Source: a virus | Strand: one strand, 5' to 3' | Virus record (IMG/VR): IMGVR_UViG_3300000101_000006 | Coordinates: 1 to 64,000 of that record | DNA: 64,000 nt | In this document: in pieces, positions 23,051 to 49,727 of the stretch | Numbering within the stretch: position 1 is the stretch's first letter | Layout: each line of letters opens with the position of its first letter | The notes under the pieces: model-generated | Seen by the model: only the letters and a program-made list of their open reading frames with translations | Databases searched by the model: none | What the model was told of the DNA's origin: nothing | Translations under genes and position numbers: made by a program

Positions 23051-23076
23051 TGTATAATGTACTTAGGAGGTATGAT

Positions 23077-30448: not shown

Positions 30449-30759
30449 AAATATCTAAAGAAAAATTAAAACAAATCATCAAGGAAGAACTTGAACTGTT
30501 CGAAATGGATGAACCAATTCCTGACGATGAAAATAGTCCAGAAGTAGTTAAGTCAAAATCTGAGTTTGCGAAGCAATTCTTAGAATTATCAAAAACAGTA
30601 AGAGGTACTTCTGGATTGGATGCTAATGAGATGCAGATGATTATGTCTCTAACGGTTTCTTTGATTAAGTTAGCCGCTGGAAAAAGTGCTGGCCCTATCT
30701 TGAAACAAATTAGCGATATTTCTAATAAGAAAATGGGGAACACTGGAGATGTTCAATGA
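30445..30759 (+). CDS. Presumed virion protein with 'MKISKEKL' N-terminal helix (104 aa)
   Basis: MKISKEKLKQIIKEELELFE matches the gene at 24512 over the first 15 residues apart from one position. The middle is acidic, the end helical. Coupled by ATGA overlaps to both neighbours, so it is made together with the 1570-residue protein. Possibly packaged or scaffolded in the head (inference). Confidence 0.65.
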   Translation: MKISKEKLKQIIKEELELFEMDEPIPDDENSPEVVKSKSEFAKQFLELSKTVRGTSGLDANEMQMIMSLTVSLIKLAAGKSAGPILKQISDISNKKMGNTGDVQ

Positions 30760-35477: not shown

Positions 35478-36821
35478 ATGGCAAAAAAAAACTTAATCAT
35501 CGATACAAACGTTTTCCTTTCGGATAGCGAGTGCTTCGAGAAGTTCGAAAATAATGACCTGTTTGTACCAATCAAGGTCTTGGAGGAATTAGACAAACAT
35601 AAGACCCGACAAGACTCCGTTGGCTTTCATGCACGTCAAGCCATTAGGCGATTTGACGTTTTAAGAGCCTCTGGAAGCCTCTCAAAGGGTGTTAGACTTG
35701 GTAAGGGGTTAGGAGTGCTTCGCTTTGTTAAAGCGGAGGAGAACGCACTAGAGGAGCTCCCAAAGGGACTCTCACATAAGTCATCGGACAACTTGATCTT
35801 GGCTGCTGCCTTAGCAATTAGAGCCGAGAATCCAAAGAGAAAGACAATCGTTGTTTCTCAAGATGTTAACATGCGAGTTATCGCAGATGCTCTAGGGTTA
35901 TTGACTGAAGATTATGTCTCCTCACAAGTCGTTGCATCTCGAGATGTTATCTATGAAGGCTTCTCAAAGTTCCTCGTCGATGATTTTATGGTTGATGAGT
36001 TCTATGATAATCAAGACGTTTGGCTCTATGAGGAAGACGCACTAGAGCAAGGCATTGTGTTATATCTAAATCAATACGTCATGCTTGTGTCAACAGAAAA
36101 TGAAAAGAAAACAGCAATTGCTAGATTCTCCGGTTGGAACAATCCTATCAAACAAATCGCTCGTAGAGATGATACTTTCTCTTGGGGAATCAAGCCAAGA
36201 AACAAAGAACAAAAGTGTGGCTTAGACATGCTTATGAACGACGACATTCCCTTTGTAAGCATGATTGGACGTGCCGGTAGTGGTAAGACCCTTATGGCGA
36301 TGGCCGCTGGCTTAGAACAAGTCCTAGGGCTCGAGAAGGGACGTTACAATCGCATCATTATTTCGAGACCAGTCCAGCCATTAGGTAAAGACATTGGATT
36401 CCTTCCCGGAACAATGGAAGAGAAGATGGCTCCTTGGATGAAGCCTATCTTTGATAACATGCAATACATCATGGGATCTGATCGAACAATGCTTGACCTT
36501 TATCTCGAGAAAGGTGTTATTGAGATTGACGCAATCACTTATATTCGTGGACGCTCCATTTCAAATGCCTATGTCATCATTGATGAAGCACAAAATCTAA
36601 CAGCTCACGAAGTAAAGACTATTCTTACTCGAATCGGCGAGAACACCAAGATTGTTTTAACTGGAGACATCGAACAGATCGACAACGTCTACACTAACGA
36701 AACATCTAACGGTTTGACTTATGCGATTGAGAAATTCAAAGAGTCTCCATTATCTGGTCACATCACGTTTAAGAAAGGTGAAAGATCGAAATTAGCCACT
36801 GAAGCTTCAAAACTTCTTTGA
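35478..36821 (+). CDS. phoH: PIN-PhoH protein (PhoH2-type ATPase/RNase)
   Basis: The 447-residue protein has a PIN domain ('LIIDTNVFL', D9; 'VLEELD'; 'SSDN'; 'SQDVNMR') and a PhoH ATPase with Walker A GRAGSGKT (264-271) and Walker B VIIDEAQN (366-373). PhoH2-type proteins are RNA helicase/RNase enzymes; PhoH genes are common in marine phages. AAGGAGCCATC precedes the ATG. It stands after the virion block, and the next promoter overlaps its stop. Confidence 0.9.
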   Translation: MAKKNLIIDTNVFLSDSECFEKFENNDLFVPIKVLEELDKHKTRQDSVGFHARQAIRRFDVLRASGSLSKGVRLGKGLGVLRFVKAEENALEELPKGLSHKSSDNLILAAALAIRAENPKRKTIVVSQDVNMRVIADALGLLTEDYVSSQVVASRDVIYEGFSKFLVDDFMVDEFYDNQDVWLYEEDALEQGIVLYLNQYVMLVSTENEKKTAIARFSGWNNPIKQIARRDDTFSWGIKPRNKEQKCGLDMLMNDDIPFVSMIGRAGSGKTLMAMAAGLEQVLGLEKGRYNRIIISRPVQPLGKDIGFLPGTMEEKMAPWMKPIFDNMQYIMGSDRTMLDLYLEKGVIEIDAITYIRGRSISNAYVIIDEAQNLTAHEVKTILTRIGENTKIVLTGDIEQIDNVYTNETSNGLTYAIEKFKESPLSGHITFKKGERSKLATEASKLL

Positions 36822-36846
36822 CATTCATTGTTTTATATGTTATAAT
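36818..36846 (+). promoter_or_regulatory. Consensus sigma70 promoter
   Basis: TTGACA, 17 bp, TATAAT, overlapping the phoH stop, 18 bases before the next start. No palindrome. Confidence 0.8.
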
Positions 36847-36864
36847 ATATAAAAGGAGACAACT

Positions 36865-37539
36865 ATGTGGATAACTGAGTCGGCAAAAAAAGGTCGGAAA
36901 ATGAAAGATATGTTTAATTTAAATGATATAACTATAATCATAAAAGATAAGATATCGGACGACGTGGACTTTGAGTTCGTTCTCAATTACATCGCAGCAA
37001 GAGTCCCCTTCTATTTAACTTCCAATATTGAAATGATCTATGTCGGGCAGTTTCCGGAAATGAAGGAAAGAGACATTAATGCATTCTATGAAAATGACGC
37101 TATTTACGTCACAAACAAGCAAGATGGTGAGATGGATATGATTGAAGATGTTATTCATGAAATCTCACACGCCGTTGAACAATATAATCAGGAGTTCATT
37201 TATGGATCAGGAGCATTGCAAAGAGAATTTGTCGCAAAACGAAAAAGGTTGTCCGCACTGTTATCGCAGAAATATGAAGTACCTGCTGATTTTAATATTA
37301 ACTTCGAGTACGATAGGGCCATTGATGAATTTCTTTACCGTGACGTCGGATATGACGCACTCAATCAGATTTGTGTTAATATCTTTCCTTCTGCTTATGC
37401 TTGTACGTCGGTAAGCGAGTATTGGGCAAAAGGGTTCGAGGAACTATTTATTGGCGAAACAAATAATCTAAGACAAATGTGTCCTGTTTTATATAAGACA
37501 CTCGCATTGCTAATAAAAGAACTTAAAGAAAATACTTGA
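36865..37539 (+). CDS. HExxH metallopeptidase-like protein (224 aa)
   Basis: 'DVIHEISHAVEQ' (H98, E99, H102) is a zinc peptidase motif. The protein otherwise has an N-terminal beta region and a C-terminal helical part. AAGGAGACAACT before ATGTGG supports this start over an internal Met at 13. Own promoter. Third HExxH protein in the window, not obviously homologous to the other two. Confidence 0.7.
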   Translation: MWITESAKKGRKMKDMFNLNDITIIIKDKISDDVDFEFVLNYIAARVPFYLTSNIEMIYVGQFPEMKERDINAFYENDAIYVTNKQDGEMDMIEDVIHEISHAVEQYNQEFIYGSGALQREFVAKRKRLSALLSQKYEVPADFNINFEYDRAIDEFLYRDVGYDALNQICVNIFPSAYACTSVSEYWAKGFEELFIGETNNLRQMCPVLYKTLALLIKELKENT

Positions 37540-37564
37540 CAAACATTCTTCACCGTGTTACCTT
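37536..37564 (+). promoter_or_regulatory. sigma70-type promoter
   Basis: TTGACA, 17 bp ending in CACCGTGT, TACCTT. It is the region-1 type of promoter without the palindrome. Drives the Cas4-like nuclease. Confidence 0.75.
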
Positions 37565-37584
37565 ATTAAGACACGGAGGACTTT

Positions 37585-38361
37585 ATGTCAAAACAACACA
37601 TTTCTTATTCAGAATTAAAAATCTTTACGGAGTGCCCATACAAATGGAAACTTCAATACCTAGACGGACTCAAAGGCTTTACAGGTAACATATATACCGC
37701 TTTTGGATCAGCCATACATGCGGTATGCGAACAATCAGCACTAGGCAATCTAGAACCAGAGAATTATGCAGAGTACTTTGATACTGCTTTCTTGTTGGAG
37801 CTCAAGAATCTTGACGAGAAACCAAAGAACAAGATGATCGTGGAGATGCGAGAACAAAGCCGTGAGATCTTCCACAAGGTCTTTCCTGCTCTCCAAGAGA
37901 TGTTTCCGGGCTATGAGGTATACTCTTCAGAAGAAGACATCTACGAGCCGATACAAGAGCTTAAGTTCACACGCTATCTCAAAGGATTCATTGACCTTGT
38001 TATTAAAACGCCTGACGGCAAGTTTCACATCATTGACTGGAAGTCTTGCTCTTGGGGTTGGGATATGAAACGCAAAAGCGAACCAATGACCACTTACCAG
38101 TTGACGCTATATAAAAAGTTCTTCTGTGAGAAACATGACGTTGATGCGAAGATGGTTGAGACATATTTTGGACTTCTCAAGCGAACAGCGAAAAAGGACA
38201 ACGTCGAAATCTTCCGAGTCACATCCGGACCAAAGAAAACAGAGAATGCGACAAAGGTGCTTACAAATGCATGTAACTTGATCAATAAAGGCATAGCCAT
38301 CAAGAATCGAAACTCCTGCTCAAAGTGTCCTTTCAACAACACGGAGCATTGCACAAGATAA
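37585..38361 (+). CDS. Cas4/RecB-like PD-(D/E)XK nuclease
   Basis: The 258-residue protein shows H45 ('GSAIHAVC'), 'GFIDLVIK' (D137), 'IIDWKSC' (D151, K153) and 'YQLTLYKK' (Q172, Y176). One N-terminal Cys (C17) and three C-terminal Cys (C245, C248, C256) match the iron-sulfur arrangement of Cas4/AddB-type nucleases. Probably a DNA end-processing exonuclease in replication or recombination. No cas1/cas2 and no CRISPR array are present. Confidence 0.85.
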   Translation: MSKQHISYSELKIFTECPYKWKLQYLDGLKGFTGNIYTAFGSAIHAVCEQSALGNLEPENYAEYFDTAFLLELKNLDEKPKNKMIVEMREQSREIFHKVFPALQEMFPGYEVYSSEEDIYEPIQELKFTRYLKGFIDLVIKTPDGKFHIIDWKSCSWGWDMKRKSEPMTTYQLTLYKKFFCEKHDVDAKMVETYFGLLKRTAKKDNVEIFRVTSGPKKTENATKVLTNACNLINKGIAIKNRNSCSKCPFNNTEHCTR

Positions 38362-38387
38362 GAAAAATAAAAAAATAAATAAAAAAC

Positions 38388-38447
38388 TTGACAACCCCCA
38401 ACTAATGTGGTATCATTAGTAATGAAAAGTGGGGTTGTCTTTTTTTG
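38388..38447 (+). promoter_or_regulatory. Promoter nested in an intrinsic terminator
   Basis: TTGACA (38388-38393), 17 bp, TATCAT (38411-38416). The stem GACAACCCC (38390-38398) pairs with GGGGTTGTC (38431-38439), followed by seven or more T. The -10 box lies within a second inverted repeat ACTAATG-N6-CATTAGT (38401-38420). Confidence 0.7.
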
Positions 38448-38475: not shown

Positions 38476-39741
38476 ATGACTAAGAAGATTAAAGTATTGA
38501 CCTTGAGCGATCATCCGTTGTCTCCTTCGGGCGTGGGCACTCAAACAAAATATGTTATTGAAGCTCTACTGAAGAGTGGAAAATTTGAAGTTCTATCTTT
38601 AGGTGGAGCAATGAAGCACAGAGATTATACCCCAACTGTTGTTGATCCGTACGGAGAAGATTGGAGAATCATTCCTGTAGATGGATATGGTACACAAGAG
38701 ATGATACGCTCAGTGATTCGTAATGAGAGACCAGATATATTATGGTTTATGACTGACCCTAGATTCTATGAGTGGTTGTGGGAGATGGAGAATGAAATCC
38801 GTCCACTGCTTCCAATGGTCTACTATCACGTCTGGGACAACAAGCCACTACCGATGTTCAATAAGAAATTTTATGAATCAAACGATCACATCGCTACAAT
38901 TTCTAGAATTACTCACGAATGCGTTCAAGGTGTTGCACCGGAAACTAGTTCGTCATATCTACCTCACGCGGTAGATTCTCAATACTTCTACCCTAGAACT
39001 TTGGAAGAAAAGAAAGAGTTGCGAAACCAGATAGTTCCAAAAGAAGATCAAGACAAGTTCATTGTTTTTTGGAACAATAGAAACGCTCGAAGAAAACAGT
39101 CTGGTACTTTGCTTTGGTGGTGGAAGGAATGGTTAGATAAGCGAGACCTATCCGATAAAGCTCAAATGATTATGCACACCAACCCATTTGATGTTCACGG
39201 ACAGAATTTAAATCAGATCGCAGAAGAACTTGGAATGTCCAATCGAGAAGTTGTATTTTCAACAAACAAGATTGCTTTGGATAAAATGTACTCTCTGTAC
39301 ACTATCGCAGATTGTACAGTTAATATTGCAGATGCTGAAGGTTTTGGCTTGGCAACATTGGAATCTCTTGCTTGTGGAACTCCCATTATCGTCAATATGA
39401 CCGGTGGATTGCAAGAACAAGTCATGGGTCAAGACGGACCTTTTGGTTTTCCAATTTATCCGATGGCCAAATCAATTATTGGATCTCAACAGGTTCCGTA
39501 TATTTTTGAAGATAGGATCTCAAAAGAACAATTGCATTCTGCACTTGATAAAATGTATGCCCTATCGATAGAAGAGAGACACGAACTTGGAATTAAAGGA
39601 GCAAAACATGTCGAAAACAATTATAACTTTGAACAATTTGGAAAAAAGTGGGTCAATCTTATGTCTAAGATTCACGAAGAGCATGGTTCTTGGGAGACAA
39701 GGAAAGGTTACGTTGGAGTTACGTTCAAGGAAGTCGCATGA
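38476..39741 (+). CDS. Glycosyltransferase, GT4/GT-B type (421 aa)
   Basis: 'GVGTQTKYVIEALLKSG' at the N-terminus and 'ADAEGFGLATLESLACGTPI' in the C-terminal domain fit GT-B glycosyltransferases (GT4-like) with the E-x7-E region. It would transfer a sugar from a nucleotide sugar onto a glycan. First gene of the glycan island, behind the terminator-embedded promoter. Confidence 0.8.
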   Translation: MTKKIKVLTLSDHPLSPSGVGTQTKYVIEALLKSGKFEVLSLGGAMKHRDYTPTVVDPYGEDWRIIPVDGYGTQEMIRSVIRNERPDILWFMTDPRFYEWLWEMENEIRPLLPMVYYHVWDNKPLPMFNKKFYESNDHIATISRITHECVQGVAPETSSSYLPHAVDSQYFYPRTLEEKKELRNQIVPKEDQDKFIVFWNNRNARRKQSGTLLWWWKEWLDKRDLSDKAQMIMHTNPFDVHGQNLNQIAEELGMSNREVVFSTNKIALDKMYSLYTIADCTVNIADAEGFGLATLESLACGTPIIVNMTGGLQEQVMGQDGPFGFPIYPMAKSIIGSQQVPYIFEDRISKEQLHSALDKMYALSIEERHELGIKGAKHVENNYNFEQFGKKWVNLMSKIHEEHGSWETRKGYVGVTFKEVA

Positions 39742-40049
39742 AAGTGCCGGACGAATTAAGAATGTTGCCTGACGATGGACAAATGAGAATGTGGGCTAGC
39801 CAAGGCTACATGCATCACATATCTGAAGATATATATGATAATGAGATAACTTATAATGTTAATATGCGTTGGCTAAAGGAGATCAACAATATCAAACCGG
39901 GAAACTTGGTATCAACACCAGAAGAAGAAGTTGCCCTTGTTTTGGAGTTTATCTCCAAAGACTTGCAAGGTTTTGATATATACAAGGTTCTCGTGAATGG
40001 CGAAGAGCACCTATATTCAACATTAGAGTTAGCAAATGTGGGAGATTAA
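39738..40049 (+). CDS. Hypothetical protein in the glycan island (103 aa)
   Basis: MKVPDELRMLPDDGQMRMWA; beta-rich C-terminal half with 'IKPGNLVSTPEEEVALVLEF', somewhat SH3-like. Start chosen on the ATGA overlap with the glycosyltransferase. Co-translated with its neighbours; function unknown. Confidence 0.6.
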   Translation: MKVPDELRMLPDDGQMRMWASQGYMHHISEDIYDNEITYNVNMRWLKEINNIKPGNLVSTPEEEVALVLEFISKDLQGFDIYKVLVNGEEHLYSTLELANVGD

Positions 40050-40466
40050 ATGAAAAAAACAATTATGGTATCAGGAGGTTTCGATCCTCCACACATTGGA
40101 CACATAAGAATGTTCAAAGAGGCTTCCAAGTGGGGCAAAGTTATTGTGGCTCTTAACTCTGATGAGTGGCTCATGAGAAAAAAGGGCTATGTATTCATGA
40201 CCTTTAAGGAGCGCATGGAAATCATCTCAGAATTCGCATCTGTTGAATATGTGATGGGTTTTGATGATGCAGATAATACAGCTTGTGATGCGATTATCTG
40301 TATGAAGCCCGACGCCTTTGCCAACGGCGGAGACCGCAAGAAAGAAAACACTCCGGAAATGGATGTGTGTGACGAATTAGGAATTCAAATGCTCTGGGGG
40401 ATTGGCGGACAAGATAAGCCGCAATCATCTTCATGGCTTGTTAATAAATTTTTGGAGAACAAATGA
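40050..40466 (+). CDS. Cytidylyltransferase-like nucleotidyltransferase
   Basis: The 138-residue protein has 'GGFDPPHIGHIRMF' (HIGH at 15-18) and 'NGGDRKKENTPE', the nucleotide-binding motifs of the RfaE2/TagD-like family, at the usual length. It would make a CDP- or ADP-linked alcohol or sugar (for example ADP-heptose-like or CDP-glycerol-like); the substrate cannot be fixed. Overlaps the next gene by four bases. Confidence 0.8.
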   Translation: MKKTIMVSGGFDPPHIGHIRMFKEASKWGKVIVALNSDEWLMRKKGYVFMTFKERMEIISEFASVEYVMGFDDADNTACDAIICMKPDAFANGGDRKKENTPEMDVCDELGIQMLWGIGGQDKPQSSSWLVNKFLENK

Positions 40467-41683
40467 AAAAGAAAATTTTCGTAAGAGCCCCCGTCTTAAC
40501 GGCAAGTGGCTATGGAGAACAGGCTCGTTTTGCTATGAGAGCATTGCGATCTAGAGAGGATCTGTTTGATATTTACATTCAACCCATTCCATGGGGCAAA
40601 ACTGGTTGGATCTGGGAAAACAACGAAGAACGAGAGTGGATGGATGCTAGAATTGCTGAGACTCAAATTCTTTTGCAACAAAAAAATCTCCAACCAGACA
40701 TCTCACTTCAAGTAACGATACCAAATGAGTTTCAAAAGTTGTGTCCAATAAATATTGGCTTCACTGCTGGAATCGAAACAGATCGAGTATCCCCTATTTG
40801 GTTAGAGAAAGGAAATGAGATGGACAAGATTCTTGTTGTTTCCGAACACGCCAAGACAACATATGAAGGAACAACTTCTTTACTTCAATTTGGGACAAAA
40901 TACAAACTACAAACTCCAATTGAAGTCGTCCATGAGACAACTCCACATGCACAATCACCAGAAGAGATCTTGGGTTTCAACCCTCGTCATGACTTCAACT
41001 TTTTAGTTGTATCGCAATTTGGCCCTCGAAAGAATTTTGAAAACACAATCACTTGGTTCGTTGAGAAATTTCAAGATAAAGATGTGGGACTAATTCTCAA
41101 GACATCGATTAAAGGATCATCACGTATAGACTTGGAACAAACTGAGGCTCGCTTAAAGGGTCTTCTGAGTCGTTTTCCTGATCGGAAGTGTTCTGTGTCT
41201 CTGCTTCACGGAGATCTCTCTGAGGGGCAAATGAGGGGCCTTTATGAGCATGATAAGGTGAAAGCTTTGGTGAACATTGCTCACGGAGAAGGATTTGGAC
41301 TTCCATTGTTCGAAGCTGCTCGAACAGCTCTTCCAATCATTACCATTCCTTGGTCTGGTCAAATGGACTTTTTGAGACATGGTGATAAGAACTATTTTGC
41401 CACCGTAAGTCACGTCACACGACCAGTACAACCGGAAGCAGTGTGGAAAGGCGTAATCGAAGAGAATGCAAATTGGGCATATGCTGAAGAAGGTTCGTAC
41501 AAAATGGCCCTTCAAATGGTTCATGAGCGCTGGAGTGAATATAAGACTCAAGCAGTGGAGCTTCAATGTTTGGTGAATGATAAATTCAACCCCGAAAATC
41601 TTTATGAAGGTTTTTGCAATGCGATTGAGAGTCTTTATGATGCAAATGTTGAGGTCGATGAGTGGGGCATTGAAGCAAAGTGA
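40463..41683 (+). CDS. Glycosyltransferase, GT-B type (406 aa)
   Basis: 'RAPVLTASGYGEQARFAMRA' N-terminal nucleotide-sugar region; 'VSQFGPRKNFENTI' and 'IAHGEGFGLPLFEAARTALP' in the C-terminal domain. Second glycosyltransferase of the island. Overlaps both neighbours. Confidence 0.8.
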   Translation: MKKKIFVRAPVLTASGYGEQARFAMRALRSREDLFDIYIQPIPWGKTGWIWENNEEREWMDARIAETQILLQQKNLQPDISLQVTIPNEFQKLCPINIGFTAGIETDRVSPIWLEKGNEMDKILVVSEHAKTTYEGTTSLLQFGTKYKLQTPIEVVHETTPHAQSPEEILGFNPRHDFNFLVVSQFGPRKNFENTITWFVEKFQDKDVGLILKTSIKGSSRIDLEQTEARLKGLLSRFPDRKCSVSLLHGDLSEGQMRGLYEHDKVKALVNIAHGEGFGLPLFEAARTALPIITIPWSGQMDFLRHGDKNYFATVSHVTRPVQPEAVWKGVIEENANWAYAEEGSYKMALQMVHERWSEYKTQAVELQCLVNDKFNPENLYEGFCNAIESLYDANVEVDEWGIEAK

Positions 41684-42615
41684 AAATTTTAATAATCGGA
41701 ACACCTAGAGCTCCAACGTTGAACGTTGGATCAAATGGCCTTGGGAGACATGTTTATGACTTTTTGAAATTGTTTGTTAAGCAAGGTTGTGAAATAACAA
41801 CAATCTTACACCCAGCGTCCAAGCTAGAGTGGGATAGTGTGAAACAATTACATTTCACAGATGAGGTATCATCCGTACATGACATTAGAAAGTTAATTTT
41901 GATGGAAAAATACGATGTAATACTTGACAATACCCACTTTAAGATGTTGAGTAGGAATTATCACAAAGACAATTTACCTATTGTAAATTTTATCCACGAT
42001 GAAGAGTGCCCCTATGTTCCACCCAATTGCCTGTTGGGGAATTTACATCAAAAACAAAAATATACCAGCGGAAAAGTATTTAAGACTGGAGTTATTTTTG
42101 ATAATTATAATCTATATGAAGAGAAAGAAAATTATTTTTGCTTTGCTGGTAAATTAGAACATAGAAAGGGCTTTGATATTGCCCTAGAAGTTGCAAATAG
42201 GACCGGTATAGAGATTAAGTTCGCAGGACCAGACATAGCTGGTGTCGCAGACTCTCTTCCGTCTTGGGTTGGAGAGATAAAAGATCGTGAAAAATTTTGC
42301 GATTTCGTAGGTAAATCTCAAGGCTTATTTTATCCAAGTAGGTCAGACGCTGGTGGTATGGGAATATGGGAGGCAGCTGCCTTGGGTACTCCTACAATTA
42401 CGACATTTTCATCTGGAGCAAGGTGCAATGTCATTCATGAAAAAACAGGATTTATCGCAAATAATATTGAGGATTTATGCAATGCAGTTGATAAAGTAAG
42501 AAAGTTGAATCCAAAAAGTGTAAGACAAGAGTCTTCTAAAGTTTGGGATTTGTCCGAAAACTTTAAACAAATTTATGAACTATTAAGTGAAGTCGGGATG
42601 GGAAGAAGATGGTAA
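41680..42615 (+). CDS. Glycosyltransferase-like protein, GTG start (311 aa)
   Basis: The GTG overlaps the preceding stop. 'GSNGLGRHVYDFLKLFVKQG', 'CFAGKLEHRKGFDIALEVAN' and 'GGMGIWEAAALGTPTITTFS' fit a GT-B enzyme, shorter than its neighbours. Third glycosyltransferase. Codon usage is more A/T-rich. Confidence 0.75.
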   Translation: MKILIIGTPRAPTLNVGSNGLGRHVYDFLKLFVKQGCEITTILHPASKLEWDSVKQLHFTDEVSSVHDIRKLILMEKYDVILDNTHFKMLSRNYHKDNLPIVNFIHDEECPYVPPNCLLGNLHQKQKYTSGKVFKTGVIFDNYNLYEEKENYFCFAGKLEHRKGFDIALEVANRTGIEIKFAGPDIAGVADSLPSWVGEIKDREKFCDFVGKSQGLFYPSRSDAGGMGIWEAAALGTPTITTFSSGARCNVIHEKTGFIANNIEDLCNAVDKVRKLNPKSVRQESSKVWDLSENFKQIYELLSEVGMGRRW

Positions 42616-43292
42616 AAAAAAGACCAATTATAAACTGTAGAGGCACGTTCATAAGACAAGTGTCCAATATGAGGAAATCAAATAGTTACCTGGAGATTGG
42701 ACTAAGTGAAAATCCTAGAGCTCCATATCGGTTGGTGGATATGCAAGACAAAACATCTATAGATATGAGGAAAGAAACAAATCCAGACTTTTGTATGGCC
42801 TCGGATGATTTTTTTAAAAAATTAAACGATGGCTTAACGAAATTTAATAAAGACAAGAAGTGGGATTTGATTTTTATCGATGGCGATCATTTCGCGGAGC
42901 AAGTATATAAAGACCTATGCAACTCTTTTGAGCACCTAAGTGATGATGGGATTATATTCCTCCATGATTCTCTTCCATGGAGATACGATATGACAATTGA
43001 GTGGCATGTTGGAACAAAAGAAGCTACTTGCCAAGATGCTTGGAAGGTTGTAGAATATTGCCTAAAGGAACGAGAGGATATGCACGTAGCGACCATTGAA
43101 GAGTTGGGTGGCGGCATAGGCGTTATTACCAAATCCAAAGGCTTAAGACGACCAATGCTAGAAAAATCCTTCAATAGATTTTATCAGTATGGAGTGTATG
43201 AGAGGGATAGGTTCAAAATGATGAATTGTATCCAACCATCTAGTATTTTAGATTGGTTAGATAATCCAAGTTACTCTTTCGGCAAAACTTGA
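42609..43292 (+). CDS. SAM-dependent methyltransferase (Methyltransf_24-like)
   Basis: 'SYLEIGLSE' (26-34) is motif I and 'WDLIFIDGDHFAEQV' (85-99, DGDH at 91-94) is the post-motif of glycan-cluster class I methyltransferases. Likely methylates a sugar. No clear ribosome binding site; it relies on the overlap with the preceding gene. Confidence 0.75.
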   Translation: MVKKRPIINCRGTFIRQVSNMRKSNSYLEIGLSENPRAPYRLVDMQDKTSIDMRKETNPDFCMASDDFFKKLNDGLTKFNKDKKWDLIFIDGDHFAEQVYKDLCNSFEHLSDDGIIFLHDSLPWRYDMTIEWHVGTKEATCQDAWKVVEYCLKEREDMHVATIEELGGGIGVITKSKGLRRPMLEKSFNRFYQYGVYERDRFKMMNCIQPSSILDWLDNPSYSFGKT

Positions 43293-43293
43293 T

Positions 43294-44049
43294 ATGACAA
43301 ATTTCAATTTTGATCAATTCTATAATTTGGGATATCAAGTTTTGCCTAATATCTTGAGCGACCAGCAGGTTCTACGCTTAAAACATCGATTAGATGAAAT
43401 ATACCAGATTCAACTTTCCGAATTTGGAGAAGAAGACATGGCACTGATAGGTGAATCGGATACTGTACGGGCTCCATTCCTGTATGATGATTTATTCATT
43501 AATCTTTTTAGTGGTCCATTCGCCAAGACTGTAACTACGAAAATCTTAGGAGAGCATAGAATTTTAAGTTTGCAAAATGCAATACTGGTAAGACCAGGAA
43601 AGTCACATCATCAATCTTCTTATCATCGTGATATTGTACATCAAAATTTTACCTCCTCAACTCCATTGGCAATTAATTTATACTATTGCTTGGACAACTA
43701 CAACCTAGATACTGGTGGTACTCATTTTTTAGCTTCAAGCCATAGACTTGACCATTTTCCAAAAAATCAACAGCCACATATTCCAAATATTTCAGCGGGA
43801 TCAGTAGTACTGTTTGACTCAATGATCTATCACAAATCTGGAGCCAATATTTCAAACTCAGATAGATACGGCATAAATAACATGTTTACATTACCTTTCA
43901 TAAAGCAACAAATTGACTATCCATCAATATTAAAAACCCCGACCAACGATAAAGATTTAAATCAACTTTTTGGCTTCCATAGTAGAGAATTTGATAATGT
44001 CATTGGCTTTAGGAAGTATAGACTTGAGAGGTTTGGTAATGACAAGTAA
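43294..44049 (+). CDS. PhyH-like Fe(II)/2-oxoglutarate dioxygenase
   Basis: H111-R-D113 ('SYHRDIVH'), H180 ('MIYHKSGAN') and R191 match the metal and 2-oxoglutarate ligands of phytanoyl-CoA dioxygenase-like enzymes. 'LDTGGTHFLASSHRLD' is a typical core. It would hydroxylate a sugar or lipid precursor. Overlaps the next gene by 11 bases. Confidence 0.8.
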   Translation: MTNFNFDQFYNLGYQVLPNILSDQQVLRLKHRLDEIYQIQLSEFGEEDMALIGESDTVRAPFLYDDLFINLFSGPFAKTVTTKILGEHRILSLQNAILVRPGKSHHQSSYHRDIVHQNFTSSTPLAINLYYCLDNYNLDTGGTHFLASSHRLDHFPKNQQPHIPNISAGSVVLFDSMIYHKSGANISNSDRYGINNMFTLPFIKQQIDYPSILKTPTNDKDLNQLFGFHSREFDNVIGFRKYRLERFGNDK

Positions 44050-44743
44050 AGCAATAATTACACAATCTAATTATGTACCATGGAAGGGGTATTTCACCAG
44101 TATGATTTCCGCAACTCACCTGGTGTTGTATGATGATATGCAATACACCAAAAGAGACTGGAGGAATAGAAACAAAATCATAACCAGAAGCGGCCCAAAG
44201 TGGTTATCAATTCCAGTGGATACTAAAGGCAAGTATCATCAAAAAATTAACGAAACCAAAATAAAAGACCCCGATTGGAATCTAAAACATTGGAATAATA
44301 TAAAGGAAAATTATAGAAAAGCTCCATTTTTTTCTGACTATGGAAAGGTGATTGAAGAAATTTACCTAAAAGAATTACAGGGCGTGGAATACTTATCATC
44401 TATAAATCGTAAGATTTTGGAAAGATTCATACAAATGTTGGGGTTGCAAATAGAAATTATTGACTCTAGAGATTTTGATCTAATTGGAAACAAAACAGAA
44501 AAATTAGTAAACATTTGCAAAGACTTAGATGCAACTGAATACTTTACTGGACCAGCTGCAAAATCCTATATGCAAGAGGACCTATTCACATCACAAGGTA
44601 TCAAGGTGAATTATTACAACTTAGACGGCTTTCAGGAATATAATCAAATGTGGGATGGTTTTGATCATTTTGTGAGCATTATAGATATGTTCATGAACTT
44701 AGGAGAGGACACGATAAAATATTTTAATCGGGAGATGGAATGA
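44039..44743 (+). CDS. WbqC-like family protein (234 aa)
   Basis: 'ITQSNYVPWKGYFTSMISAT' and 'WRNRNKIITRSGPKWLSIPV' are hallmark stretches of the WbqC family, found in polysaccharide clusters; the exact reaction is not settled. The ATG within the preceding gene end was chosen because earlier starts would add unrelated residues. Confidence 0.8.
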   Translation: MTSKAIITQSNYVPWKGYFTSMISATHLVLYDDMQYTKRDWRNRNKIITRSGPKWLSIPVDTKGKYHQKINETKIKDPDWNLKHWNNIKENYRKAPFFSDYGKVIEEIYLKELQGVEYLSSINRKILERFIQMLGLQIEIIDSRDFDLIGNKTEKLVNICKDLDATEYFTGPAAKSYMQEDLFTSQGIKVNYYNLDGFQEYNQMWDGFDHFVSIIDMFMNLGEDTIKYFNREME

Positions 44744-45405
44744 AAAGTAAAAAATTAATTTTATTCGGTGAAGGATTGTATACAGAAGTTGCATACCAAT
44801 ACTTCACAGATGATAGTGAATATGATGTGGTTTGTTTTACAAAAGATGATGGATACATTTCTTCCGAAGACTACTTGGGCCTACCAATGATCAAGTTTTC
44901 AGAAATACAAGATAAATATCCCCCTTCTGATTACGACATGCATGTCGCCGTAAGCTATACTGACATGAACAAGCTTAGGGAAAGAGTTTATCGTGAAGCG
45001 AAAGAGAAAGGTTACAAACTTCCTTCTTACATTAGTTCAAAATGCACTAACATGACAAAACATGACATTGGCGATAATTGCTTCATTTTTGAAGACAATA
45101 CTATTCAACCGTTTGTTAAAATAGGCGCCAATGTAATTTTGTGGAGCGGTAATCACATTGGCCACCATAGTACCATTAAATCCCATAACTTTATTAGTTC
45201 TCACGCTGTAATCTCAGGACAATGTACTGTGGAATCAAATTGTTTTATTGGAGTTAATAGCACCATAGGTCACGGAGTAACAATCGCAAAATCCACCTTG
45301 CTTGGTGCAGGTGCAATCATTACTAAAAATACAGAGAAGGAATCTGTTTATGTACCTGCTAGGTCTATAAAACTTGGGAAAAAAAGCACAGAGTTTAAAT
45401 TATGA
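44740..45405 (+). CDS. Left-handed beta-helix acyltransferase (NeuD/PglD-like)
   Basis: The 221-residue protein has an N-terminal Rossmann-like half ('LILFGEGLYTEVAYQYF') and a C-terminal hexapeptide-repeat helix ('GANVILWSGNHIGHHSTIKS', 'NCFIGVNSTIGHGVTIAKST'), as in sugar O- or N-acetyltransferases. It would acetylate an amino sugar, consistent with the aminotransferase nearby. Confidence 0.8.
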   Translation: MKSKKLILFGEGLYTEVAYQYFTDDSEYDVVCFTKDDGYISSEDYLGLPMIKFSEIQDKYPPSDYDMHVAVSYTDMNKLRERVYREAKEKGYKLPSYISSKCTNMTKHDIGDNCFIFEDNTIQPFVKIGANVILWSGNHIGHHSTIKSHNFISSHAVISGQCTVESNCFIGVNSTIGHGVTIAKSTLLGAGAIITKNTEKESVYVPARSIKLGKKSTEFKL

Positions 45406-46289
45406 ACCAGTTTGAGTGGAAAAAAAGAGGACTGATCTATTCACCAAGTAATAGTGACTCAAAACTGATGACACATGCATCTAACCCGTTGGCTACTCAT
45501 TTAGATGGCGATATTTTTAGGGTTTTTTATAGTGGCCGAGATTGCAACAATAGATCCTCGGTTTCATATGTGGATATTGACTTTAGAACATTTGATATTG
45601 TAGACGATTACAAGAAGCCAATTATCTGCTTCGGTCATAAACACAGTTTCTACTCTCATGGAATTACGATTGGAAACCTTTGGGAATCCAATGGGGAAAA
45701 GTTTGTAGGATTTATGGGCTGGCAACACAGGACAGGTCAGCATTGGAGGGGAGATATAGGAAAGTTCAACCTTTCCACAAAGGAAGTTAGTTTAGTTTTG
45801 AGTAAAAACAATGTTGACAAAGTTAGCCTCTCCTACCCATTTGTCTTAAAGGACGAGGGCATCTATAAGATGTGGTATGGTTCAACAATTTCATGGTCTT
45901 CTGAGAACAATGAGATGGTACATGTATTGAATTACGCAGAATCTTTAGATTCTATAAAGTGGGATACCAAAGGCGAAGCAATCCCATGGCAAATCGGCGA
46001 AGCCCAAGCATTTTCTAGACCAAGCGTCCTCAAGGTGAATAACGAATATCATATGTGGTACTCCTATAGAACCGGTGATGGTACACCTTATAGAATTGGG
46101 TATTCAAATAGTATAGATGGTCTTGAGTGGAAAAATTCAAAAAGCAACATTGATGTATCTGAACTTGGGTGGGACTCTGAGATGATATGTTACCCATTTG
46201 TATTTAAGCATGACAACACTCTTTTCATGTTGTACAATGGTAATGGTCACGGAAAAACAGGCTTCGGACTGGCTACTTGCAAAATTTAA
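45402..46289 (+). CDS. GH43/32-like beta-propeller protein (295 aa)
   Basis: Repeated blades such as 'FRVFYSGRDCNNRSSVSYV', 'IYKMWYGSTISWSS' and 'YHMWYSYRTGDGTPYRIGYS' fit a five-bladed propeller of glycosidase-like proteins. No catalytic acids can be assigned with confidence. Propellers of this kind occur in O-antigen-like clusters as binders or trimming enzymes. Confidence 0.7.
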   Translation: MNQFEWKKRGLIYSPSNSDSKLMTHASNPLATHLDGDIFRVFYSGRDCNNRSSVSYVDIDFRTFDIVDDYKKPIICFGHKHSFYSHGITIGNLWESNGEKFVGFMGWQHRTGQHWRGDIGKFNLSTKEVSLVLSKNNVDKVSLSYPFVLKDEGIYKMWYGSTISWSSENNEMVHVLNYAESLDSIKWDTKGEAIPWQIGEAQAFSRPSVLKVNNEYHMWYSYRTGDGTPYRIGYSNSIDGLEWKNSKSNIDVSELGWDSEMICYPFVFKHDNTLFMLYNGNGHGKTGFGLATCKI

Positions 46290-46299
46290 AAAATAAAGC

Positions 46300-46328
46300 T
46301 TGATTAATTAAGAATAATATGCTATAAT
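46300..46328 (+). promoter_or_regulatory. sigma70-type promoter
   Basis: TTGATT, 17 bp, TATAAT, between the propeller and the DegT-like genes. It gives the last two island genes their own promoter. Confidence 0.65.
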
Positions 46329-46352
46329 GATTTGTAACAATAGGAGTTTAAA

Positions 46353-46967
46353 ATGAGACATAACCCATATAGAATAGTCAAAATGTTTGAAGAGACAGTG
46401 GCCGACTACTGCGGCTCAAAATATGCAGTATCAACTGATAGTTGCACTGATGCATTGCTGCTTTGCTGTGAGTACTATCATGTTGACAACGTAACGATTC
46501 CATCCAAGACATACTTGTCTGTACCTCAGTCCATCCTCCACGCAGGAGGCACTCCAGTCTTTAGAGATTATAGTTGGAAGGGCATATATCAATTAGAACC
46601 CTATCCTATCTGGGACGCCGCGAAAAGATTTACAAGTAACATGTACATTCCGGGATCTCTAATGTGTCTATCTTTTCACATCAAGAAGCACTTGAAAATA
46701 GGAAAGGGAGGCATGATACTAACTGATAGCGAAGAAGCAGCTAAATGGTTTAGAAAGGCTCGATATGAAGGTCGCGGAGAAGTGATGTATCATGAAGACG
46801 ATATTGAGATTAATGGCTGGAATGCTTATATGTCTCCCGAACAAGCCGCAAGGGGTCTAATGCTTATGCAGAATTATCCGGACCACGTAGATGACCTACC
46901 AGAGCTACCATCCTATAGAGATCTAAGAGAGTTTCCACTGTTCAAAGACGTAGAGGTGGTAAGATGA
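46353..46967 (+). CDS. Shortened DegT/DnrJ-type aminotransferase
   Basis: It has the PLP-lysine region 'SFHIKKHLKIGKGGMI' (K112) and 'WDAAKRF' (Asp88), but is only 204 residues against about 370-400 in the family. The C-terminal domain is largely missing and the gene overlaps the next one by four bases. It may be a truncated but active minimal form or a degenerating gene. Confidence 0.75.
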   Translation: MRHNPYRIVKMFEETVADYCGSKYAVSTDSCTDALLLCCEYYHVDNVTIPSKTYLSVPQSILHAGGTPVFRDYSWKGIYQLEPYPIWDAAKRFTSNMYIPGSLMCLSFHIKKHLKIGKGGMILTDSEEAAKWFRKARYEGRGEVMYHEDDIEINGWNAYMSPEQAARGLMLMQNYPDHVDDLPELPSYRDLREFPLFKDVEVVR

Positions 46968-47920
46968 AGTTGATAGTGATAACTGGATGTTTGGGCCTTA
47001 TTGGTAACCATGTGACAAGACAATGTTTGAGCAAAGGATGGAGAGTGTTAGGGATAGATAAGATGACCTATGCTGCTAATGATTGGGCACTACAGGAATT
47101 TTCAGCCAATGAGAATTTTACATTCATGAAAAAAGATATTTGTGATCTCAAAACCCTACCTGACTGTGACTATGTAATAAACATAGCAGCAGAGTCACAT
47201 GTTGAAAATAGTATTAGAGACTCAGATGTATTCATGCAATCTAATGTGATTGGAGTAAAGAATCTCCTAAACATTATAAAAGATAAACATGGTAACGTAT
47301 TTAAGAGACCAGTGTTTTTTCACTTTAGTACCGATGAAGTGTATGGAGATATCAAAGCAGGTTCTCACATTGAAACAGATATCTTAAAACCTAGCAATCC
47401 TTATTCTGCCTCGAAAGCAGCTGCAGACATGTTAGTTCTTGCATGGTCTAGGACATATGATTTGGATTATATAATTTTGAGACCTACAAACAATTACGGC
47501 ATTGGACAATATTGTGAAAAATTGATACCGCTATCAGTGAAATTGTTGTCTTTAGGTAGAAAGATAAATCTCCACGACAAAGGTCAACCAGTTAGAAATT
47601 GGCTACATTCTTCTGATACTGCACAAGCAGTGATAAAAATCATAGAGTCAGGCAGAATTAACGAGATCTTCAATGTTGCTGGTAACTTAGAACAGAAAAA
47701 CTATGAAACTGCGACTAAAATAGTAACATCGTTTCATGCAGATATGTCATCTGACTCGGTTTCGTCTTTTTTTAATCTAGAGCATGTTCGAAAGGGTCAA
47801 GATGTTAGGTATGCCCTAGACGATTCAAAGTTAAAAAAACTAGGATGGTCTCCATCCAAAAACTTTGATGATGAAATTGTTTCTATAGTAAAATATTATA
47901 AAAATAATTTTAAATGGTAA
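46964..47920 (+). CDS. RmlB-like NAD-dependent sugar dehydratase/epimerase
   Basis: Residues 8-14 give GxxGxxG; 'STDEVYG' (122-128) and Y147xxxK151 are the active-site residues of dTDP-glucose 4,6-dehydratase-type enzymes. It probably makes a 4-keto-6-deoxy nucleotide sugar that the adjacent DegT-like enzyme would aminate. The 318-residue length is near the family norm. Confidence 0.85.
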   Translation: MKLIVITGCLGLIGNHVTRQCLSKGWRVLGIDKMTYAANDWALQEFSANENFTFMKKDICDLKTLPDCDYVINIAAESHVENSIRDSDVFMQSNVIGVKNLLNIIKDKHGNVFKRPVFFHFSTDEVYGDIKAGSHIETDILKPSNPYSASKAAADMLVLAWSRTYDLDYIILRPTNNYGIGQYCEKLIPLSVKLLSLGRKINLHDKGQPVRNWLHSSDTAQAVIKIIESGRINEIFNVAGNLEQKNYETATKIVTSFHADMSSDSVSSFFNLEHVRKGQDVRYALDDSKLKKLGWSPSKNFDDEIVSIVKYYKNNFKW

Positions 47921-47925
47921 AACAC

Positions 47926-47954
47926 TTGACAAGAGCCATTATTTGTGATATAAT
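47926..47954 (+). promoter_or_regulatory. Consensus sigma70 promoter
   Basis: TTGACA, 17 bp, TATAAT, then a TAGGAG site for the gene at 47981. Opens the next operon, which includes the late sigma factor. Confidence 0.8.
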
Positions 47955-47980: not shown

Positions 47981-48175
47981 ATGGATCATAAATTATCAAA
48001 TCAAGCCGTCGGAGCAATCATGATGGCGTTACAAAAATCACTCATGGAACAAACGGATATTACACCGGTGTTACAAGACTTCCAAATTCAAGTTGATGAC
48101 TCAGGACAATTAGTCGTGATGAATCCTCCCACTTTTGAAGTAAAGGATTCTGTTAAGGTAGACAAGGATGCCTAG
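47981..48175 (+). CDS. Small hypothetical protein (64 aa)
   Basis: MDHKLSNQAVGAIMMALQKS; helical head, then 'DFQIQVDDSGQLVVMNPPTF', a pattern seen in small proteins preceding FmdB-type genes in marine phages. Overlaps the following zinc-ribbon gene. Confidence 0.65.
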   Translation: MDHKLSNQAVGAIMMALQKSLMEQTDITPVLQDFQIQVDDSGQLVVMNPPTFEVKDSVKVDKDA

Positions 48176-48425
48176 ATACACTTACAAGTGTCTAGACTGC
48201 GAAGAGGTGTTTGATGTTGTTCATGGTATGAATGACGAGCACTTTACATGTGGATTTTGCATATCAAGAAACATCCGTAAAGTGCCTCAAATGCCTCATG
48301 TCGCTCGCCAAACTACTCCAAAGGGTGGTAAGGTAGGCGATGAAGTAAAACGCGCTATAGAAGAGAATAGGGCTATCCTAAAGGAAGAACAAAAGATAAG
48401 AGTGGAGTTGCCTGATGATGATTGA
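48168..48425 (+). CDS. FmdB-like zinc-ribbon protein (85 aa)
   Basis: C8xxC11 and C28xxC31 with 'MPRYTYKCLDCEEVFD' are the start of the FmdB/CxxC_CxxC regulatory zinc-ribbon family. In T4-like phages this type commonly lies by gp55. It could be a transcription or nucleic-acid adaptor. Confidence 0.8.
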   Translation: MPRYTYKCLDCEEVFDVVHGMNDEHFTCGFCISRNIRKVPQMPHVARQTTPKGGKVGDEVKRAIEENRAILKEEQKIRVELPDDD

Positions 48426-48801
48426 AGTTTGGCTTATTATAGCACTAGTAGTATCTGCAGCCTTGAATTGTGTTCTCTGGTGGCTCTTAAGAGCACAATC
48501 ATATGAACTAACAACAGTAGCAGACAATTCAGAAGATTTGATTGAGATGATAAATAGTTTTAAAAATCACATTAAAGCTGTCTATAGTTTGGACTCCTTC
48601 TATGGAGATGAGACACTAAAAGGCTTAATGGATCATGCCGGATCATTATCTATCATCCTAGAAGATCAATACGGCGACATAGCATCATTATCAGAACCAG
48701 TAGAATATGAAGAACAACAGGAAGATCAAAATGGCGAGAAAGAGAGCTCCGAAAAAGAAAAACATGTACTTTACGCAGGTACACGAAGACGCGATAGTTA
48801 A
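48415..48801 (+). CDS. Membrane-anchored protein (128 aa)
   Basis: MIEVWLIIALVVSAALNCVL is one transmembrane segment; the tail contains 'VYSLDSFYGDETLKGLMDHA', a stretch I recognise from genes preceding gp55 in marine T4-like phages. The acidic end overlaps the sigma gene. Two adjacent ATG codons are possible starts. Confidence 0.7.
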   Translation: MMIEVWLIIALVVSAALNCVLWWLLRAQSYELTTVADNSEDLIEMINSFKNHIKAVYSLDSFYGDETLKGLMDHAGSLSIILEDQYGDIASLSEPVEYEEQQEDQNGEKESSEKEKHVLYAGTRRRDS

Positions 48802-49423
48802 ATATTGCTCAACTGATGAGATGAGGAAAAAGGAAGAGTTATACAATTCTTTAATTCAGCCTGCATTTTCTCAAATGGTTGATAAGATTGTATTTACTTA
48901 TCGTTTCACAACGTTACCAGATATCGACGATTTACGTGAAGAGTGTAAAGGCTGGCTTGTAACCATTCTTGCGAAGTTTGATCCCAACAAGGGACACAAG
49001 GCTTTTTCATACTTTTCTGTTGTCACAAAGAATTGGTTTATTCACAAAGTAAAGAAGAACAAGAAGCGACTTGAAAGAGAAGTATCGTTTGAGTCAGTCG
49101 ATTATGATCTCGAGAGAGATCTCGCAGACAAGGGACAATCATATCAGGACCTTAAAATCCGCCGAGAAATGATGGCGAATCTGAAGGACGAAATGGCTTC
49201 TTGGAAAGTTGACTTCCAGAAAGAATCGGAAAAGAAGGTTTACGAAGCCGTATTGGTACTCTTTGAGTCAGCAGAGGAGATTGAGATATTCAATAAGAAA
49301 GCCATCTATCTTTATCTCCGAGAGCTCACGGGTATGAATACGAAACAAATCGTTGTCCAATTAAATAAAATGCGATCTCGATATAGAGACTTTAGAAAGG
49401 ACTGGGATAACGGCGAAATTTAA
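48731..49423 (+). CDS. Late sigma factor, gp55-like
   Basis: The 230-residue protein has sigma-region-2-like 'DIDDLREECKGWLVTILAKF' and 'GHKAFSYFSVVTKNWFIHKV', as in T4 gp55. It would direct host polymerase to late promoters. The ATG after CAGGAAGATCAAA was chosen, and the gene starts inside the previous one. Its presence implies late promoters for the structural genes, though I find only one TATAAATA. Confidence 0.8.
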   Translation: MARKRAPKKKNMYFTQVHEDAIVKYCSTDEMRKKEELYNSLIQPAFSQMVDKIVFTYRFTTLPDIDDLREECKGWLVTILAKFDPNKGHKAFSYFSVVTKNWFIHKVKKNKKRLEREVSFESVDYDLERDLADKGQSYQDLKIRREMMANLKDEMASWKVDFQKESEKKVYEAVLVLFESAEEIEIFNKKAIYLYLRELTGMNTKQIVVQLNKMRSRYRDFRKDWDNGEI

Positions 49424-49442
49424 GCTGGAACTAATTATTACC

Positions 49443-49727
49443 ATGAGCAGCAAAAAATTTATCGATGAAGCCATAGAAAACATTAGGGAGGACCGAGAAA
49501 CTACTCGAGAACTCCTTGATGATGCTATGCGTTATTTGTCACAAGACCAATCTCGACATAGAGACATAGGACAAACTCTTGCGAAATATGTAGAGACTCT
49601 ACAACGATCCAACGAACAACTTGTAAAGCTTTGTGGATTATTATCAAAGAACGAAAAGACCGAGGAGTTGACCGATAAAGACTTTGCTCAAATATTTGAT
49701 CAAATTCAAGAATCGGAGGATAAGTAG
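49443..49727 (+). CDS. Helical conserved-type phage protein (94 aa)
   Basis: MSSKKFIDEAIENIREDRET and 'YVETLQRSNEQLVKLCGLLS' resemble small helical proteins found between gp55 and baseplate genes in marine T4-like phages. Coiled-coil look. Stop overlaps the next GTG. Confidence 0.65.
   Translation: MSSKKFIDEAIENIREDRETTRELLDDAMRYLSQDQSRHRDIGQTLAKYVETLQRSNEQLVKLCGLLSKNEKTEELTDKDFAQIFDQIQESEDK

Follow-up and report, generated by a model that had tools for sequence, protein, structure and literature searches.

Marine-phage glycan clusters are customarily classed as host LPS genes, which is a vague annotation. A lineage-wide variable sugar locus without export machinery lets one ask instead, in testable form, whether tailed phages change the sugars on their own coat in the way that bacteria change O-antigens. 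If true, this would have consequences for phage adsorption and decoy receptors as well as for predation and immune recognition. The question is raised here by a locus in a window of 64,000 nucleotides, the whole stretch of DNA that was analysed (positions 1 to 64,000 of the IMG/VR record IMGVR_UViG_3300000101_000006); the source record is a 127-kb virus of the T4 superfamily, of the "far-T4" type.

Layout and gene content of the island

Between positions 38476 and 47920 we found twelve ORFs, all on the same strand and with junctions mostly of 0–4 bp, confirming the original prediction of a twelve-gene glycan island inside a phage genome. The gene types that it had named (three glycosyltransferases (GT), a nucleotidyltransferase, a methyltransferase, PhyH, WbqC, an acyltransferase, a propeller, DegT and RmlB) agree with the Pfam, PHROGs and NCBIfam profile matches from which the domain calls across the island were made. 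The features of the island and of its flanks are the following:

35478..38361, + strand: conserved left flank with PhoH, a 224-aa gene and a PD-(D/E)XK (Cas4/RecB-like) exonuclease
38388..38416, + strand: predicted sigma70-type promoter ahead of GT1, TTGACA-17-TATCAT, extended −10, 11/12 consensus
38476..39741, + strand: GT1, GT-B/GT4 glycosyltransferase (Glycos_transf_1, phrog_2170)
39738..40049, + strand: 103-aa ORF without functional assignment, its ATG overlapping the GT1 stop
40050..40466, + strand: NT, HIGH-superfamily nucleotidyltransferase, HldE2/TagD-like (CTP_transf_like, E 5e-11)
40463..41683, + strand: GT2, GT-B glycosyltransferase (Glycos_transf_1; phrog_2170, E 3e-14)
41680..42615, + strand: GT3, variable GT-B glycosyltransferase (Glycos_transf_1, E 1e-11)
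42609..43292, + strand: MT, SAM methyltransferase (Methyltransf_24, E 2e-9)
43294..44049, + strand: PhyH-type Fe(II)/2OG oxygenase (profile E 2e-16)
44039..44743, + strand: WbqC-like protein (PF08889, E 6e-71)
44740..45405, + strand: HEX, NeuD/PglB/VioB-family left-handed beta-helix sugar N-acyltransferase (TIGR03570)
45402..46289, + strand: PROP, GH130-like beta-propeller (PF04041, Glyco_hydro_130, 27.3 bits, cut-off 26)
46300..46328, + strand: predicted sigma70-type promoter in the 63-bp gap upstream of mini-DegT, TTGATT-17-TATAAT, extended −10 (TG before)
46353..46967, + strand: mini-DegT, compact DegT/DnrJ/EryC1/StrS-fold protein of 204 aa (PF01041)
46964..47920, + strand: RmlB-like dTDP-glucose 4,6-dehydratase (phrog_540; TIGR01181)
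47926..47954, + strand: perfect sigma70 promoter predicted for the following operon, marking the right border of the island
47981..51037, + strand: conserved right flank with small ORFs, a zinc-ribbon-like ORF, a late-sigma-like factor and a lysozyme-like protein

The island was also described as an overlapping operon, which is correct for most junctions but not for the one before mini-DegT, where the 63-bp gap and the sigma70-like promoter interrupt it. Host-type (sigma70-like) promoters are predicted at both island ends, and the one ahead of GT1 sits within an inverted repeat followed by T7. Perfect sigma70 sites are in excess in the window (3 observed against 0.05 expected), instead of T4-type late promoters (TATAAATA), which are not. 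The island goes beyond chance, because its homologues are under purifying selection and its gene order is repeated in independent contigs.

The only near-full-length PDB profile match of GT1 was the chlorovirus glycosyltransferase B736L (E 2e-15), whose own acceptor is unsettled according to PMC9614988. Relatives of GT3 occur in loci L011, L028 and L031. For NT the top curated model was heptose-1-P adenylyltransferase (rfaE_dom_II), with 63 bits, below the cut-off of 181. HEX passes the NeuD/PglB/VioB model TIGR03570 (166.3 bits, cut-off 160.8) and its nearest PDB relatives are PglD-type acetyltransferases, while PROP matched a beta-1,2-oligomannan phosphorylase in the PDB (E 3e-5). Bacterial homologues of the WbqC-like protein (41–44%) adjoin DegT, RmlB and propeller genes; a literature search on WbqC function gave no useful lead. 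The 103-aa ORF matched no Pfam or PHROG family and was not found in the other complete islands.

The compact DegT protein and the RmlB-like dehydratase

The most unusual part of the island is its compact, conserved DegT. Mini-DegT matches PF01041 in two stretches (E 9e-23, 81.5 bits, cut-off 19.8), and its AF2 model (pLDDT 92, pTM 0.90) superposes on the full-size DegT chains listed with Z of 17.7–20.1 over 191–201 of its 204 residues. By sequence, it keeps the Schiff-base (PLP) lysine motif SFHxxK, the xDAA Asp and the GxN Asn; across 34–35 sequences D88, S107, F108 and K112 are invariant, and N157 and H109 are conserved in at least 90%. The lysine and GxN motifs were placed by HMM alignment and the Asp by pattern only; the role of D88 thus rests on the motif pattern together with the fold, since MAFFT alone misaligned this region against full-size DegTs. 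The fold and SFHxxK are common to full-size sugar aminotransferases (the GDP-perosamine synthases 3dr7/3bn1, ArnB, PseC, WecE and Archaeoglobus 7b0d), but those listed have at least 357 residues, whereas mini-DegT lacks the C-terminal domain and one internal segment, so that the two-domain full-length architecture (about 360–440 aa) is absent. The C-terminal domain of full-size DegT enzymes contributes to nucleotide-sugar binding and, since it is missing, the aminotransferase activity of mini-DegT is only putative.

A truncation by frameshift or assembly error was ruled out by the 74 distinct sequences in the fetched loci, nearly all of ~200 aa (73 of them 196–236 aa long), by purifying selection (pN 0.10 against pS 0.8) and by the high-confidence fold. 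The protein is not confined to phages either: it also turned up in contigs of Bacteroidota, in 2 of the 296 genomes sampled, and in single-cell contigs of Prochlorococcus, one of which has it beside an ABC exporter. A conserved half-size DegT would show the limit to which the sugar-aminotransferase fold can be reduced, and might be a handy enzyme.

The adjoining RmlB-like protein scored 298.5 bits against TIGR01181, below the NCBI equivalog cut-off of 365.1 bits. It is a putative 4,6-dehydratase with the motifs GxxGxxG (G8/G11/G14), T123-D124-E125 and YxxxK (Y147/K151), invariant across 7 sequences; its PDB matches are RmlB enzymes (to E 2.5e-81), including Mimivirus R141 (6vlo). Together with the NeuD-type N-acyltransferase, RmlB and DegT make up the coherent amino-deoxy-sugar gene set that had been proposed.

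A constant frame with exchanged cargo

A nucleotide search of phage records gave zero matches, so relatives were sought by protein search. The half-size DegT is encoded on at least 80 contigs of IMG/VR, many of which have it at the matching syntenic site, where the shared order is PhoH, PD-(D/E)XK exonuclease, GT1, GT2, a variable segment, RmlB, sigma and lysozyme-like gene. Eighteen non-redundant complete islands contain 311 genes in 97 families, 56 of them singletons, and only four families are constant or nearly so: GT1 and GT2 (each in 18 of 18), mini-DegT and RmlB. Within the cargo, the idea that a GNAT and the NeuD-type acyltransferase are strict alternatives was unsupported, some islands with PhyH, WbqC, HEX and PROP also holding a GNAT-size gene at the usual place.

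Similar islands occur in isolated phages, i.e. Flavobacterium phage immuto and Microcystis phage Mel-JY01. The island of immuto 2-6A (NC_055915, 49.2–60.0 kb) shares the anchor of PD-(D/E)XK nuclease and two GTs, a mini-DegT (44%), a PglD-type acyltransferase, an epimerase and zero polytopic proteins, but has different GTs, an additional full-size DegT and no annotated WbqC, PhyH or propeller.

Where the glycan may be placed

The locus had been said to resemble an O-antigen locus. The comparison is good for the cargo, which combines nucleotide-sugar genes (RmlB, DegT, NeuD-type, NT) with several GTs, as O-antigen loci do, and has a match in bacterial loci holding a full-size DegT, WbqC and propeller module. 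It fails for export and polymerisation because, unlike these bacterial loci, which include polytopic membrane proteins and, in L126, an ABC exporter, the island is missing membrane and export genes: none of the complete islands has a recognised initiating transferase, flippase, polymerase or ABC exporter, and no polytopic membrane protein was predicted among 379 island ORFs (311 non-redundant). The same predictor detected both wzy (6 TM) and wzx (9 TM) of E. coli K-12, and found a single polytopic protein among 1929 ORFs of related viral loci. The initiating transferases PF02397 (WbaP type) and PF00953 (WecA type) were absent from 17–18 related phage records, with the controls matching, and PF01943 (Wzx type) from 18, with 13 of 14 controls matching.

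The original prediction left the glycan on the virion or on the infected cell; as far as gene content can tell, the absence of export genes appears to tip the balance towards the virion, a virion coat being likelier than a new cell surface because genes for shipping sugars to the surface are missing. The explanation towards which we lean, with modest confidence, is that this hypervariable fixed-site island makes in the cytosol an N-acylated amino-deoxyhexose glycan put on a phage (virion) protein, in the style of the viosamine cluster of Mimivirus. The host-type promoters at both ends of the island count in its favour. We infer a reaction order in which RmlB (4,6-dehydratase) and mini-DegT (PLP aminotransferase) would convert host NDP-glucose into an NDP-4-amino-4,6-dideoxyhexose, which the NeuD-type enzyme would then N-acylate; MT, PhyH, WbqC and the propeller may tailor the amino sugar or its acyl group, and NT may activate a second sugar. 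The constant GT1 and GT2 plus the variable GT3 would build the chain on the phage protein in the cytoplasm, giving progeny virions a strain-specific glycan coat that could mask the particle or alter adsorption. Exchange of the inner cassette would change the coat chemistry, while the site and the four genes stay.

A rather unlikely alternative, although one with published counterparts, is that lipid-linked O-antigen or capsule intermediates of the host receive an unusual sugar from the cytosolic enzymes and are exported by host flippases, so that superinfecting phages could not bind or progeny would be spared trapping on debris. The cargo is like that of bacterial surface-glycan loci, similar clusters were interpreted in this way in pelagimyophages (PMC7029224) and jumbo cyanophages (PMC7824862), and with host-like promoters expression may start ahead of the late genes. 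Host flippases or polymerases, as well as the initiating transferase, could be borrowed, and this counts against the virion as acceptor. On the other hand, complete islands have none of the four export and assembly functions recognised, whereas the bacterial counterparts that share the module do encode membrane proteins; a single lineage would have to depend on host machinery across hosts as unlike as Flavobacterium and Microcystis; and for a lytic phage the payoff from a surface already built would come late.

That the product is instead a small diffusible metabolite, antibiotic-like or a signal, is very unlikely: DegT, PhyH and methyltransferases do occur in secondary-metabolite clusters, and such a role is proposed for a second cyanophage cluster in PMC7824862, but the islands hold two constant and at least one variable GT, and carrier or scaffold enzymes were not recognised in them. 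That the sugars go onto modified bases in the phage DNA seems highly improbable, even though DNA-acting phage glycosyltransferases exist, the reading was raised for related moraphages (PMC12619734) and the cassette includes a 2OG oxygenase. A thymidylate-synthase-fold hydroxymethylase is absent from this record, which may be incomplete, and present in only 3 of 17 records; the cargo of multiple GTs, N-acyltransferase, WbqC and propeller, which differs wholesale among relatives, fits surface glycans. The original prediction had likewise judged the island to be less like phage DNA-modification genes. A Tet/JBP search was uninformative on this point, since its controls gave no match.

The glycan coat on the virion has its closest model in Mimivirus. 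PMC9614988 describes in APMV a 12-gene cluster in which R141 (dehydratase), L136 (DegT), L142 (PglB-like) and R132, with a methyltransferase and GTs, make Vio4NAc for the virion fibrils. Both loci are virus-encoded, have clade-specific content and combine a 4,6-dehydratase, DegT, a PglB/NeuD-type N-acyltransferase, a methyltransferase and several GTs. Mimivirus, however, is a giant eukaryotic virus with a full-size DegT (352 aa), whose product and virion location are established, whereas the island is known from its genes; the PhyH, WbqC and propeller genes of the island are not described for the cluster in the passages considered. With soluble GTs and sugar-nucleotide enzymes and no export machinery, the island fits a trait of virus-encoded virion glycosylation of the Mimivirus/chlorovirus type, and the chlorovirus match of GT1 and the Mimivirus relative of RmlB speak for this reading as well. 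More tentatively, and somewhat against our own expectation, a T4-related lineage might possess its own "serotype locus", in which four constant genes and swappable cassettes yield distinct amino-sugar virion coats made in the cytoplasm; mini-DegT would then represent a new minimal DegT architecture, and the locus a prokaryotic counterpart to the Mimivirus glycogene clusters.

Among phages, the host-recognition cluster of pelagimyophages and cyanomyophages (PMC7029224) is likewise hypervariable, of LPS type, found in the T4 superfamily and rich in GTs and rfaE-type genes. Its place is between VrlC and gp14, in the company of tail fibres. The neighbours of the island are the PD-(D/E)XK exonuclease on one side and the sigma and lysozyme genes on the other; four of its genes are constant, and a tail fibre was not recognised in it. 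The jumbo-cyanophage "capsular polysaccharide modification systems" of PMC7824862 are interpreted there as changing the host O-antigen and come without a description of a half-size DegT; they share with the island an NAD-dependent epimerase/dehydratase, a HIGH nucleotidyltransferase, diverse GTs and a polymorphic organisation. They also include a PfkB kinase, which was found in one relative of the island.

Gene content and shared position of the island

The source virus record is 127,431 bp long, the window being its first 64 kb. All twelve open reading frames of the original prediction were recovered on the plus strand, each at its predicted coordinates, and the domain roles proposed for them were borne out by profile searches:

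38476 (start), plus strand: GT1, GT-B glycosyltransferase
39738-40049, plus strand: ORF with no match in Pfam and PHROG searches
40050 (start), plus strand: NT, HIGH-type nucleotidyltransferase, HldE2 being the nearest
40463 (start), plus strand: GT2, GT-B glycosyltransferase
41680 (start), plus strand: GT3, GT-B glycosyltransferase
after GT3, plus strand, in this order: methyltransferase (MT), PhyH, WbqC (family match E 6e-71), HEX (NeuD/PglB/VioB-type acyltransferase, over the curated cut-off), PROP (GH130-like propeller)
46353-46967, plus strand: mini-DegT, compact DegT-type protein
46964-47920, plus strand: RmlB-type dehydratase

The proposed overlapping operon holds for most junctions, which are overlapping or short; the exception is a 63-bp gap 5' of the mini-DegT gene, containing a sigma70-like promoter. 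A second such promoter lies ahead of GT1 and a perfect one downstream of RmlB, thus the island is bounded by promoters; perfect TTGACA/TATAAT sites in the window were 3, against 0.05 in shuffles. The GT1 promoter is located within a nested inverted repeat (GACAACCCC...GGGGTTGTC; 38385-38445), followed by a T run, as if the same bases were common to a terminator and a promoter.

The search of IMG/VR with mini-DegT identified 128 confirmed relatives, from which 80 loci were kept for analysis. Gene-order maps revealed a recurrent frame, namely PhoH, a 224-aa gene, a PD-(D/E)XK exonuclease, GT1, GT2, the cargo, RmlB, small ORFs, a sigma-like and a lysozyme-like gene. Both borders were present in 18 non-redundant islands, which span 9.4-18.9 kb and contain 12-24 genes each. 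Their 311 genes form 97 families, 56 being singletons; GT1, GT2 and mini-DegT were each present in 18/18 and RmlB in 17/18, the next commonest family occurred in 15 and most families in four or fewer. The inner cassette PhyH-WbqC-HEX-PROP(-MT) keeps its order in seven further viral contigs, and the mean G+C from GT3 to PROP is 0.36, against 0.40 for the region's remaining genes (p 0.008), as expected if the cargo was imported. In the isolates immuto and Mel-JY01, glycosyltransferase islands sit behind the same exonuclease.

Known phage glycan islands include the pelagimyophage host-recognition cluster (PMC7029224) and jumbo-cyanophage clusters (PMC7824862), and core glycosyltransferases have already been reported in moraphages (PMC12619734). 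As far as those papers show, what would be new here is a slot, shared over many contigs, with four constant genes, together with a systematic absence of export genes and a compact DegT.

The compact DegT-type protein

All but one of the 74 distinct mini-DegT sequences from the fetched loci measure 196-236 aa. Their profile matched the DegT enzymes of the PDB over two disjoint stretches, indicating that mini-DegT is devoid of an internal segment and of the C-terminal domain. Its AlphaFold2 model (pLDDT 92.3, pTM 0.90) aligned 191-201 of its 204 residues with sugar aminotransferases (Z 17.7-20.1; Foldseek was also run), the listed matches being chains of at least 357 residues each. D88, S107, F108 and K112 are among the conserved residues, H109 and N157 falling just short; these positions correspond to the DegT motifs 'DAA', 'SFHxxK' and 'GxN', whose retention supports a predicted working PLP site.

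Of 296 genomes sampled from a single phylum, to which a Sediminibacterium genome belongs, only two had a compact form (59-66% identity, 205-219 aa), and the remaining matches were mostly full-size DegTs (best E-value 7e-11); on these sequence comparisons, therefore, mini-DegT is a discrete subfamily, common in these phages and scarce in cellular genomes. In the Bacteroidota contigs L096 (7989-8594), L097, L099, L102 and L120 mini-DegT stands alone, with no evident prophage around, and in a Prochlorococcus single-cell contig (L100, 7905-10376) a relative adjoins a flippase-like ABC transporter, with a SIS-domain gene near, giving a cellular setting with an exporter. A related island (L021, 12171-15387) encodes HAD, PfkB, a protein with a C-terminal RpiB/LacAB domain and, at 215 aa, an isolated transketolase N-domain, the latter a second case of shortened enzyme in such islands.

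Proposed pathway and glycan acceptor

On the basis of family functions, RmlB would produce an NDP-4-keto-6-deoxyhexose, mini-DegT would aminate it at C4, HEX would N-acylate the aminated sugar, MT, PhyH, WbqC and PROP would tailor it, and GT1-3 would assemble the chain, probably in this order. A parallel is the Mimivirus cluster R141-L136-L142-R132, responsible for the (2-O-methyl) N-acetyl-viosamine of virion fibrils (PMC9614988). R141 (6vlo) is among the PDB relatives of RmlB, and chlorovirus B736L is the only PDB relative of GT1 to match it across nearly its full length, the acceptor of B736L itself being undecided. These likenesses support an island that works like the two systems, without making it a member of either.

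An O-antigen locus, which the island had been said to resemble, requires an initiating transferase and membrane export/polymerisation, by the Wzx/Wzy or ABC pathways. By a simple hydropathy scan, which detected 6 segments in Wzy and 9 in Wzx of E. coli K-12, none of the 379 ORFs of 22 complete islands had more than one predicted membrane segment, and a single polytopic ORF was found among 1929 in related viral loci. Pfam models of WbaP, Wzx and WecA type had zero matches across 17-18 phage records (metagenomic ones may be incomplete), and were positive in 9, 13 and 12 of 14 control genomes, respectively. Bacterial chromosomal loci are a natural control: two of them combine full-size DegT, WbqC homologues (41-42%) and propeller homologues (50-53%) with polytopic membrane proteins, including, in one, an ABC exporter. 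Thus, the phages hold the sugar chemistry without export, and the resemblance to an O-antigen locus is limited to that chemistry, the initiating transferase and the export/polymerisation genes not having been found. The simplest acceptor would be a cytoplasmic protein, most plausibly one belonging to the virion; alternatively, the phage may borrow host exporters for the island product. DNA glycosylation would be a further role, but the lack of a thymidylate-synthase-type hydroxymethylase in the source record, possibly incomplete, speaks against it.

The phage and its other genes

The terminase, portal, major head protein and baseplate wedge matched PHROG families that we take to belong to the T4 superfamily. 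When named relatives were ranked by portal protein, Flavobacterium phage immuto, Microcystis phage Mel-JY01 and a huge-phage contig came first and Rhodothermus phage RM378 next, which on sequence grounds places the phage in the 'far-T4' sphere. Glycosyl-, sugar or epimerase genes go unmentioned in the far-T4 genome paper (PMC4360716).

Giant proteins flank the island on both sides, of 1570 aa (30756-35468; no match in Pfam and PHROG searches) and 2259 aa (52052-58831), and could possibly be structural proteins or glycan acceptors. A HAD-phosphatase-like and NUDIX fusion (23050-24369), whose PHROG match is a phosphoheptose-isomerase family, might supply sugar phosphate to the island. Finally, the protein at 9585-10820 combines DUF2201 metallopeptidase and VWA-like domains, so that its PHROG label, 'HNH endonuclease', looks wrong.
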